Position numbers and translations under genes: made by a program
The notes under the pieces: model-generated
The model's input: the letters and a program-made list of their open reading frames with translations, nothing else
Database searches by the model: none
Told to the model about the DNA's origin: nothing
Assembly: GCA_031257835.1 (NCBI GenBank)
Contig: JAIRNY010000020.1
Coordinates: forward strand, 78,884-142,883
DNA from: Candidatus Endomicrobiellum cryptotermitis
Lineage (GTDB): Bacteria; Elusimicrobiota; Endomicrobiia; Endomicrobiales; Endomicrobiaceae
DNA length: 64,000 nucleotides
Direction of reading: 5' to 3'
Shown here: positions 11,772-44,133 of the stretch, in pieces
How positions within the stretch are numbered: the first letter of the stretch is position 1
Layout: the number at the start of each line of letters is the position of its first letter

Positions 11772-11942
11772 TTTTTTGATTGTAACATAAACAAAAAAAC
11801 ATGTCAAATCTCATCTTAAAACAAAATTTACAAACATTCATTATTTAACTTGGCTTAACCCCTAGAGTTTAGTCTATAGTCAAATCAGATAGCTAGATAT
11901 GTTTATAAAGCAGATCTAGTTTAGAGCAATATCTGCTTAGTT

Positions 11943-12202
11943 TGTAAAAGTTCAAACACCTATTGGACTTTTAAAGTCACTTGGCACAGACATAGTTAGT
12001 TTGCTCTAGTGTAGAGCCTTATCTACGTTACTAGAGCAATCGCAACAAACATTTAATCAATTTAGCAAACTTGCAAAATGGTAAGACAAGAAAGACTTAT
12101 ATGTATTTTGCTTCAAACAATGCTAATTTGCAATATTAAATGTTTATTGCTCATAGAACGCTCTTTGAGCTAACTCCGATAAGATTCTAAACTAGACCAA
12201 AT
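11943..12202. repeat. Dispersed hairpin repeat copy A (conserved flank 11943-11998, core 11999-12202)
   Basis: Core shares most of its length with copies at 32206-32414 and 43815-44133; terminal inverted arms GTTTGSTCTAGT...TTATC. Confidence 0.85.
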
Positions 12203-12413
12203 TAAACTTAATAACACTTTATTTTGTCTACTCCTTAGTGTTAATCCGCTAAGTTCAGGATCAAATATAGCACAAACTATATCAAAAACTCATGAACAAA
12301 CACAAACAGTTATAACCGAAGTCCAAGAAGCAGCAACAAGTTGTTGCGCTTTTAATAGACTTCTTAAAAGCTTTACTCAACAGACATTAATAAAATATAC
12401 AAAGCCAAGCTGA
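12183..12413 (+). pseudogene. Open coding-like fragment of unknown protein downstream of repeat A
   Basis: No start codon; 76 open codons incl. LSSGSNIAQTISKTHEQTQTVITEVQEAATSCCAFNRLLKSFTQQTLIKYTKPS*. Confidence 0.4.
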
Positions 12414-22726: not shown

Positions 22727-23014
22727 TTCTTCTATTCCAATATAATATTTAATTTTCTTATCGCTCTTGATTATAGTATTTTTTATGGTGTTTGTGCATC
22801 TTTTCGTATCGTCACACCTTAAACATTTTAGTATTTTAAAATCCAACTTGCTCGACAGAGTTTACTAGAACAACCAATTTTACAAGTAAATTACCAATAT
22901 TTCATTAAGAGTGGCCAAATCAGATGAATCCCCAAGACCAAAATATGCCACAAAGACATCTAGCTTCCCTTGCTATATCTAGCCATATCGCTACTGATAC
23001 TTACGGTATTTCCT

Positions 23015-23070
23015 GGCACAGACATAGTTTGTTTGGTCAGTTTAGTATCCTTATCTACGGTACTAGAGCA
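23015..23070. repeat. Truncated copy B of the hairpin repeat (flank + left arm only)
   Basis: tggcacagacatagtttGTTTGGTCAGTTTAGTATCCTTATCTACGGTACTAGAGCA, then divergence. Confidence 0.75.
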
Positions 23071-23289
23071 GATTTTATAAAAAGATTATTTTTCGACAGA
23101 GTTTATGAGAGATTTAGACATAAAATATTAGTTTTTTTAGAGGGGACCAAATAGATTAAAGCCTGACCGATTTTAAGGGAAAACTATGTAAAATATTTAT
23201 GATTTTAAATATACAAATTTAAAAAAGGTTTTCTATGAAAAAATTATATTAAAAGCTAACTCCGCCTTATTTTAGTGGGGCTATATTGA

Positions 23290-23556
23290 TTTTCAAGAAG
23301 AGAGAGTTCTGTTTTTTCGAAAGTTCGGATAGTTCCCCTTGTTTTCCTTCAATTTTTTGTTGATACACAAAACGTCCCTGCTCTATCACCTCTTTCGGCA
23401 AGATTTTATTTAGCAGTCCAGCTGTTGTTAATCTATCCTACAACTAATACGCAATCATAGCTATAAAATTTACAAAAAGCCAACCATCAATTACGAACCT
23501 ATTTTGCATATACGTTTTGTCTGCTTCCAAAAAATTCTTGTAACTATCAAACATTA
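23290..23556 (-). pseudogene. C-terminal remnant of IS transposase (IS1634/IS4-like)
   Basis: MFDSYKNFLEADKTYMQNRFVIDGWLFVNFIAMIAY*L*DRLTTAGLLNKILPKEVIEQGRFVYQQKIEGKQGELSELSKKQN; two in-frame stops. Confidence 0.65.
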
Positions 23557-23632
23557 CTCCTACCCACTAACTTGAGGCGAAGTTAGGGTTTAAAAGCTAA
23601 AGAAAGTAAAAGAATTAAAAACGGGAACTTAT

Positions 23633-31597: not shown

Positions 31598-32107
31598 GTG
31601 AAAAAAGTTGTTTTTATCACTGCTCCAGATACTTTTAGAGATGAAGAATATTATAAACCTAAAGAAGTACTTGAAAATGCTAATGTTGAAGTTGTAACAG
31701 CAAGCACAAAGATAGGCAAGCTAACTGGAAAATTTGGATTCAAAACAGTTAGCACACTCTTAATTAGCAATATTATCCCTAACAATTTTAATGCAATAGT
31801 GTATATAGGAGGAGGTGGCTCAAGTATATTTTTTAATAATGGAAAAGCTTTAAGTTTATCCATAGAGTTTTTCAAACTTAACAAAGTAGTAGCTTCTATA
31901 TGTATTGCAGGAGTAATCCTTGCAAATTCAGGAATTCTAAAAGATAAAAAAGCAACTGTATTTGTAGATGGGAAAGACACATTAATAAATAAAGGCGCCA
32001 CATATACTGCTGCTCCTTTAGAGATTGATGGAAACATTATAACTGCAAACGGACCTGAGGTAGCTGAAGATTTCGGTAAAGCTATTCTAAAAGCAATAAA
32101 CCTATAA
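31598..32107 (+). CDS. DJ-1/PfpI family protein (GTG start)
   Basis: VYIGGGGSSIFF, ASICIAGVILANSGIL, ITANGPEVAEDFGKAIL. Confidence 0.87.
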   Translation: MKKVVFITAPDTFRDEEYYKPKEVLENANVEVVTASTKIGKLTGKFGFKTVSTLLISNIIPNNFNAIVYIGGGGSSIFFNNGKALSLSIEFFKLNKVVASICIAGVILANSGILKDKKATVFVDGKDTLINKGATYTAAPLEIDGNIITANGPEVAEDFGKAILKAINL

Positions 32108-32148
32108 TTACAACTCAAAAAAATAGAATTAGTACTAAGCCTATTTTT

Positions 32149-32414
32149 TTGTAAAAGTTCAAACACATGTTGTACTTTTAGACTCATTTGACACATAAAC
32201 AGTTAGTTTGGTCTAGTTTATAACCTTATCGAAGTTACCTAAAAGCGCGGCTTATGAGCAATAAAATAAACATTTAATATTTCAAGTTAGCATTGCCTGA
32301 ACCAAAATACATATAAGTCTTTCTTGTCTTATCATTTTGCAAGTTTGCTAATTCGTTTAAATGTTTGTTGCGATTGCTCTAGTAACATAGATAAGGTTAT
32401 AAACTAGACCAAAC
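32149..32414. repeat. Dispersed hairpin repeat copy C (flank 32149-32205, core 32206-32414, core inverted relative to flank)
   Basis: Reverse complement of the core aligns to copy A; near-perfect terminal arms GTTTGGTCTAGTTTATAACCTTATC. Confidence 0.87.
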
Positions 32415-32466
32415 ATCCGCTGCATTTATTTTGAGTTTTGAGTTACTATTTTATATAATCAGTCAA

Positions 32467-33312
32467 ATGAAAAATATAGACATGCTTATAAAACTTGCAT
32501 TAAAAGAAGACGGCGTTTTTAAAGATATTACCACAAAAGAGTTTATCCCAAAAGATAAAAAAGCAAGGGCTATATTGTTTGCTAAAAAACATGGTATTCT
32601 TTGCGGTATAGATATTTTTATAAAGGTGTTTAAAGAAGTTGATAAGAATTGTAAAGTTTCAATAAAATTGAAAGACGGTGCAAAAATTAAACCAGGCGAT
32701 AAGATTCTAGAAATTTACGGTTTAGCTAAATTAATTTTAGCAGCAGAAAGAACAGCTCTTAACTTTTTACAATATTTATCTGGAATTGCAACTTTAACAA
32801 ATCTTTTTGTACAAGCCATTAAAAATGGTAAACCAAAAATATACGATACAAGAAAAACACTGCCAGGTTATAGAGAACTTGCAAAGTATGCAGTAAAGTG
32901 TGGTGGAGGGTTTAACCACAGAATGGGGCTCTATGATATGGCATTAATAAAAGATAACCACTTAAAACTTACTACAGATTTAAAAACTAAAGTGGCAACA
33001 TTTAGAAAAACATACAATAAAATTCCTGTTGAAATTGAGTGTGAAACAATACAAGAAGTAAAACAAGCTGTTGACGCAAAGGCAGACATTATAATGTTAG
33101 ATAACACTTCTATCAGCAACACAAAAAAAATGATTAAACTTATAAGGAATAATTCTAACATACAGTATAAGCCAGAGATAGAAATTTCAGGGGGAGTAAC
33201 CTTAAAAGCTGCAAAAAGTTTCTCTAAGATTGACGCTGATAGGATTTCTGTAGGAATGCTTACGCATTCTGTTACAGCCTTAGATTTATCTTTAGAAGTA
33301 ACAATAAAATGA
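32467..33312 (+). CDS. nadC: Nicotinate-nucleotide pyrophosphorylase (carboxylating)
   Basis: AERTALNFLQYLSGIAT, YDTRKTLPGYRELAKYAVKCGGGFNHRMGLYDMALIKDNH. Confidence 0.96.
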   Translation: MKNIDMLIKLALKEDGVFKDITTKEFIPKDKKARAILFAKKHGILCGIDIFIKVFKEVDKNCKVSIKLKDGAKIKPGDKILEIYGLAKLILAAERTALNFLQYLSGIATLTNLFVQAIKNGKPKIYDTRKTLPGYRELAKYAVKCGGGFNHRMGLYDMALIKDNHLKLTTDLKTKVATFRKTYNKIPVEIECETIQEVKQAVDAKADIIMLDNTSISNTKKMIKLIRNNSNIQYKPEIEISGGVTLKAAKSFSKIDADRISVGMLTHSVTALDLSLEVTIK

Positions 33313-34256
33313 CAAACATTATTAAAATTCTAGATTCAAGCAACCGCATTTCCGGAAGCGAAATAGGAAATATGCTTGGTATATCTAAAGTAGCAGTTTA
33401 CAAGCAAATAAAAAATTTAAAACAAATTGGATACAATATAAAATCTTGTACAAAAGGGTACAAATTAATAAAAGGCAAAAAACTTTTTAATGAGTTTGAA
33501 ATAGAATTTAATCTCAACAAAAGTCTTGATGTATGTAAAATTATAAAATATTACAAAAAGTTACCTTCTACGCAAATTACAGTAAAAGCATTAGCTCAAA
33601 AAAACTTTAATGAAGGTACAGTGGTAATAGCAGAAAAGCAAACAAGCGGTTATGGACGCATTAAAAGAGTTTGGAACTCTAATCCTGGCGGGTTATGGTT
33701 TTCTATACTTTTAAAGCCATTTCTGCACCCTGAAGAATCTTCTAAACTGGCATTGGTATTAAGTATTGCTCTAAAGCATACTTTTGATTTGTACACTATC
33801 GACTCAAAAATAAAATGGCCTAATGACATTTTTATAAACAACAAAAAAATAGCTGGTATAATAATAGAAATGTCTGCAGAACAAAACATTATAAATTGGG
33901 CAGTTGCAGGTGTTGGAATAAATATTAATAATAAATTGCCAAAAGAAATACAAGAAACTTCTGTTTCTTTAAAAGAAATTGTAAACAAAGAAATAGACAG
34001 AACAGAGTTTATTTGTGAGTTTTTTATAAATTTTGAAAAACTGTACAACTCTTTTCAAAAAGAAGGGTTTAAACAGTTTTTAAGAGAGTACAATGACAAC
34101 CTTTTATATAAGAATAAACGTGTACTAATAGATACTGGTTACAATGTAATAGATGGAATAAATTTGGGCGTAGATGAAAACGGAATGCTTATAATTAATA
34201 CCGAAAACAAGTTAAAAAAAATAAGTTCAGGCACTTTAAGAGAGTACAAAAAATAA
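33309..34256 (+). CDS. birA: Biotin operon repressor / biotin-protein ligase
   Basis: N-terminal HTH; SGYGRIKRVWNSNPGGLWFSILLKP; KWPNDIFINNKKIAGIIIE. Confidence 0.95.
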   Translation: MTNIIKILDSSNRISGSEIGNMLGISKVAVYKQIKNLKQIGYNIKSCTKGYKLIKGKKLFNEFEIEFNLNKSLDVCKIIKYYKKLPSTQITVKALAQKNFNEGTVVIAEKQTSGYGRIKRVWNSNPGGLWFSILLKPFLHPEESSKLALVLSIALKHTFDLYTIDSKIKWPNDIFINNKKIAGIIIEMSAEQNIINWAVAGVGININNKLPKEIQETSVSLKEIVNKEIDRTEFICEFFINFEKLYNSFQKEGFKQFLREYNDNLLYKNKRVLIDTGYNVIDGINLGVDENGMLIINTENKLKKISSGTLREYKK

Positions 34257-43814: not shown

Positions 43815-44133
43815 AGCTGACTTAAGTTTAGTATTATCTATGTTACTAGAGCAATCGCAACAAACATTTAAACAAAATAGAAAACTACCAAAATGGTAAG
43901 ACAAATAAAGACTTAAATGAATTGGGTCTGTCTAAAAACCTTACTGCTGCGTTAAAAAACTTGTGTTTATCACACTATAAACCCTGCGTTTTTTGCCTTG
44001 CAGTGTCAAAAAATTCACAGCAATTATAGGCATTAGGGTTTTTTATACAGACCCCTTTTGCAATATTAAAAGTTTATTGCTCAGAGAATGCTCTTTAAGG
44101 TAACATAGATAATACTAAACGTTAAGTCAAGCT
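43815..44133. repeat. Dispersed hairpin repeat copy D (interrupted by nested element)
   Basis: Arms AGCTGACTTAAGTTTAGTATTATCTATGTTAC / rc of GTAACATAGATAATACTAAACGTTAAGTCAAGCT; inner arms match copy A. Confidence 0.85.
43924..44055. mobile_element. MITE-like element nested in repeat D
   Basis: ~131 bp with termini GGGTCTGTCTAAAAACC and (rc) GGGGTCTGTATAAAAAACCC; breaks alignment of copy D to copy A. Confidence 0.65.

Follow-up and report, generated by a model that had tools for sequence, protein, structure and literature searches.

Loss of recombination and of mobile DNA is the usual expectation for intracellular symbionts. Several described systems lie close to the repeat studied here. Bacterial MITEs and small mobile repeats (RU/ERIC-type, MITEAba12) are short, non-coding sequences with terminal inverted repeats, which exist in many intergenic copies, fold into hairpins and can carry a nested second element. 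REPINs and BIMEs with RAYT are paired inverted units in a hairpin and form tandem clusters with repeated flank segments (PMC3116915). Invertons and invertible promoters (PMC11892184, PMC8748976) are segments that lie between inverted repeats and occur at a single locus in either orientation. Where inverted repeats undergo template switching, the arms are homogenised and the spacer is inverted, as documented in yeast for very short spacers (PMC8604942). In the main texts of the Endomicrobia literature transposons are mentioned, and no passage on the present repeat was found there.

The DNA analysed, called the window below, is a stretch of 64,000 nucleotides from a Candidatus Endomicrobiellum endosymbiont of termite flagellates (genome G000), which was compared with the related genomes G001, G010 and G015 (E. 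roisinitermitis). Copy C of the repeat (32210–32410, + strand, short form, core '+'; terminal inverted repeat ends and HMM hit) is a MITE-like element of 201 bp with 33-bp arms and folds into a single hairpin (-44.7 kcal/mol, z -9 versus shuffles). The ends were taken from a scan at 5 errors; 7 errors were too permissive. The left arm (32206–32238, +) is 94% complementary over 33 nt to the right arm (32382–32414, −; match I4). Between them lies the interior (32239–32381, +), which the repeat search and ortholog alignment show in the opposite orientation to copy A and to the C locus in G015 and G010. Upstream of C is a DJ-1/PfpI family gene (31598–32107, +) and downstream is nadC (32470–33312, +), which matches named Endomicrobiellum and Endomicrobium genomes at 70–92%. 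Between the DJ-1/PfpI gene and C, a self-match reveals an inverted repeat of 36 bp (32116–32151), which looks like a transcription terminator of that gene but is absent from the terminator-scan list.

The original prediction held that copies A and C share a left flank in the same orientation, around a core inverted between them. The repeat search in the window bears this out. The flank matches directly over 91 nt at 82% identity (D2, 11941–12031 versus 32148–32238), and the interior matches in inverted orientation over 150 nt at 91% complementarity (I1, 11999–12148 versus 32265–32414), next to a further inverted match of 84% (I3, 12143–12205 versus 32203–32265). By BLAST, A and C give an inverted match of 212 nt (86%, E 6e-62). 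An insignificant flank similarity, named in advance as a sign against the prediction, did not occur; the similarity of A and C is well past chance, and the same pattern is found in dozens of copies genome-wide. The shared left flank of C (32148–32209, +; D2, flank classes and four-genome search) lies outside the arms and consists of a small hairpin (TTTGTAAAAGTTCAAAC..TTGTACTTTTA, 32148–32182) and a 22-bp segment (TTGACACATAAACAGTTAGTTT, 32188–32209). In other copies this unit occurs on either side of the core. The right-flank segment of C, AAACATCCGCTGCATTT (32411–32427, +), is the counterpart of AAATGCAGCAGATATT beside other copies (flank classes). Copy A itself spans 12003–12198 (−, core '−'; repeat search, terminal inverted repeats and HMM), with its shared flank at 11941–12002. 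The window also holds site B (22807–23589, no strand assigned; repeat search and HMM), a decayed copy with a fragment at 23014–23070, and copy D (43825–44120, −; HMM and site comparison), a long form with a nested second repeat.

Genome-wide, the element is a MITE-like hairpin of about 200 bp with terminal inverted repeats of about 33 bp, and no gene was recognised inside it. It is dispersed in at least 37 arrays in G000, and in at least 31–39 in each of the four genomes (BLAST and HMM). Only 4 of the 41 species of the genus carry it, and a wider family search added just one 26-bp match. In the long form, a second repeat of 162–174 bp with its own ends (GGGTCTGTCTAA..TTAGACAGACCC) is nested at one fixed position. 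In many copies this nested repeat, likewise MITE-like (L089:1153-1317 and similar, ends GGGTCTGTCTAAA..TTTAGACAGACCC), occupies one and the same position, and the composite therefore probably spread by copying once the nesting had occurred. G010 has many tandem arrays, of which 24 of 25 are uniform in orientation. In arrays such as G010:C17:1659-2328 the linkers are roughly 23–31 bp and built from the two flank segments, and the array size at one site varies between species.

The element thus resembles bacterial MITEs in all the features listed above, but no parent transposase was found (the Y1 family being the one searched), no target duplication was identified, and the sites are common to species while the interiors flip and are exchanged. 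The likeness to REPINs and BIMEs lies in the paired inverted units and the tandem clusters with repeated flank segments; the unit here is far longer (~200 bp), and no Y1 (IS200-type) transposase was found in G000, G001 or G010. The sole Y1 fragment among the four genomes (G015:C17:688-1011) has two stops inside. The flank was considered as a mere target site. No junction of the two outer flank segments without the element was found in the four genomes by the empty-site search, so this is unlikely. Two element-less loci are imprecise deletions, and the flank list shows no target site duplication.

At the C locus the flanks align on both sides, and the core is '+' in G000 and G001 (L009, flanks 100% identical) and '−' in G010 and G015 (L010). 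The locus is without the element in E. cubanum. The site orthologous to copy A has the opposite orientation and the long form in G015, and copy D is opposite in G001, G010 and G015. In G015 and G010 the site orthologous to B has long-form or multiple elements. G015 thus carries A, C and D of the window in the opposite orientation, and in the aligned part it has an element at each of the four sites A to D and no further one. Among about 25 sites shared with both flanks (a grouping that is the analyst's reading of the site tables, the sites being a sample drawn from the copies listed), the orientation differs at 11. The difference is clear at 7 (C, A, D, L004/L162, L005/L218, L105/L148 and L135/L219) and less clear, in arrays or partial copies, at L098, L134/L162, L198/L159 and L216/L108. 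The inversion is real and recurrent. Inversion between the arms, as originally proposed, is supported, beyond what the window alone shows, by these opposite orientations at the same locus between conserved flanks, and a fixed orientation in all strains, the other sign named against it, was not seen.

An assembly artefact, produced by short-read assemblers that turned the segment round between its arms, has hardly any probability. In its favour, the named relatives were assembled from metagenomes and several contigs terminate in copies. Both states, however, occur in several independent assemblies, and flipped loci are different in sequence and in short or long form as well. Moreover, 'k119' in the contig names of L009, L010 and L011 suggests a k-mer longer than the 33-bp arms.

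The nadC–birA tree pairs G000 with G010 and G001 with G015. Outside birA, the split that matches the C orientation is the least supported one (10 sites versus 28 and 29), and this distribution hints that C may have flipped at least twice. Almost all of the tree's signal lies in the gene birA (33312–34256, downstream of nadC), where 104 of the 109 informative sites give this pairing. The neighbouring blocks group differently, which looks like an exchange of birA alleles between the species.

Two orientations at C, a segment flanked by inverted repeats and the presence of XerC and XerD would also suit a phase-variable inverton, whose site-specific recombinase would control neighbours such as nadC. 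The machinery and the promoter sites make this very improbable. No serine recombinase (PF00239) was hit in the four genomes, and the only tyrosine recombinases (PF00589) common to them are the housekeeping XerC and XerD. XerD adjoins a recN-like gene, and the XerC-like protein (best NCBIfam match XerC, 5 bits below the cut-off) adjoins a topA-like gene; both neighbour names are the analyst's reading of the translations. An extra tyrosine recombinase of 400 aa (G015:C10:1127-1645) was seen in G015 only. A dif-like character of the arms was rejected: they resemble dif at background level only, when compared with what we take to be the E. coli and B. subtilis dif sequences. The best promoter-like match for nadC (TTGAGT-17-TATAAT, 32431–32459) lies outside the element, promoter-like sites in the C region show no excess over shuffles, and we found no evidence of a regulatory switch at C. 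The likeness to published invertons ends with the bounded segment and its two orientations: here no dedicated invertase was found, no promoter logic is seen at C, and the interiors are replaced by paralogs rather than merely flipped. Of the two mechanisms proposed for the inversion, a homologous-type exchange fits and an invertase-like activity does not. The idea of an invertible DNA element holds for the inversion between arms, but a clean invertible element is not the rule, since the interiors are usually replaced by family members as well as flipped. For other machinery, recA is intact in all four genomes. The SbcC profile gave nothing over the cut-off in them, with 17–19-bit matches in two; the model passes the cut-off in only 1 of 14 control genomes, so SbcC may well be present all the same.

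The interiors were compared between orthologous sites, whose flanks are 86–97% identical (averaging 91–93%). The identity of orthologous interiors is 0.878 in the same orientation and 0.887 when flipped, at a paralog median of 0.88, and the ranks of orthologs among the copies are scattered across the whole range. If the element only flipped, orthologous interiors would be as alike as the flanks. This is not seen, which argues that interiors have been exchanged between copies; most loci do not look like the outcome of simple in-place switching. Exceptions that keep their interior are L171/L124 (0.963) and L127/L130 (0.969), each the closest pair and in the same orientation. At L004/L150 an odd outer arm (TTACTCTAG..CTAGAGTAAT) survives in both species, around an interior that is flipped and has changed from the short to the long form.

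Variation within the interiors was also mosaic. Both alleles are present in all four genomes at 14 of the 20 biallelic interior columns, and 162 of the 190 column pairs fail the four-gamete test. Linkage (r2) drops from 0.14 at 1–5 bp to 0.014 beyond 40 bp (0 of 2000 permutations), with the decay within about 15 bp. The inner ~9 bp of the arm is side-specific (0.917 versus 0.636), whereas the outer ~20 bp is side-neutral (0.848 versus 0.845). Shared polymorphisms, the four allele combinations, the linkage decay and the side-neutral outer arm together point to exchange of interiors between copies in either orientation.

Unrelated interiors and random orientation would follow naturally as well if mobile copies had inserted independently, or had been excised and re-inserted, at hot spots common to the different species. 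In favour of this, the G015 copy at site A of the window meets its flank differently, G000 seems to hold an extra unit beside an old end there, and array sizes vary between species. We nevertheless regard re-insertion as doubtful and rather improbable. At many sites the match is exact to the base and in both species the arm ends run on into conserved flanks, which show no strong consensus for a target. Where the window aligns with G015, every site is a shared one; a clean empty site with target duplication was not found, and an IS200-type transposase is absent in G000, G001 and G010.

With shared sites, both orientations, interiors no closer to orthologs than to paralogs, mosaic alleles with short-range linkage, a near lack of dedicated recombinases and an intact recA all observed, we lean towards ectopic gene conversion, RecA-dependent or replication-associated, by which interiors are exchanged between dispersed copies at old shared sites and flips arise as a by-product. 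On this reading the element is a non-autonomous, MITE-like hairpin repeat limited to one group of Ca. Endomicrobiellum species, with insertion sites that are old, fixed and common to the species. Exchange between dispersed copies would take hold in the outer arms, which are side-neutral: their ~20 bp are the same sequence on both sides, in inverted orientation, so that an interior may be copied in either direction and an exchange anchored there can flip it. The exchange is presumed to be gene conversion or break repair, which the hairpin might provoke, and to be neutral for the neighbouring genes. Several findings weigh against gene conversion between copies. Ordinary RecA conversion would be expected to leave linkage tracts longer than ~15 bp, arms of 20–33 bp at ~85% identity are short for RecA, and the outer arms show on average no conservation by locus (0.835 versus a background of 0.827). 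In addition, the flipped C interiors of G000 and G010 are 95% identical over 84 columns (rank 1 of 31), as a plain in-place inversion would give.

This last finding, together with the stable hairpin at C, would suit a flip in place by template switching between the arms of a single copy. The arms within one copy are also slightly more alike than expected (0.861 versus 0.841, 1 of 2000 permutations), and in the pair L171 (GGGCTAG/CTAGCCC) and its ortholog L124 (GGTCTAG) both arms have changed together, in line with the arm homogenisation documented in yeast. However, template switching as the whole explanation is unlikely. It leaves unexplained why orthologous interiors are as unlike as paralogs and why the short or long form changes at flipped sites, and flipped orthologous interiors are not nearest relatives at most loci. 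The documented spacer inversions are of a few bp, while the spacer here is ~140 bp and exchange takes place between dispersed copies. Since the arms within a copy are more alike than expected, template switching within copies probably contributes as a second process. At C, with its 95% match, interior exchange and within-copy template switching are not separable.

Beyond exchange of interiors by gene conversion, it may tentatively be imagined, as a speculative view of low probability, that the copies are a freely recombining pool of cassettes at fixed sites. The arms would anchor while the interiors are shuffled between sites and orientations, with orthology erased within 3–14% flank divergence, possibly through an uncharacterised process specific to the arms, in place of ordinary homologous recombination.

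A difference in orientation between inverted repeats is not necessarily the sign of a regulatory switch, and this calls for caution in reading such differences. With dozens of short hairpin repeats whose interiors are exchanged and flipped at fixed sites in several species, these symbionts offer a natural system in which ectopic gene conversion, and also hairpin-driven inversion, can be measured in a reduced genome.
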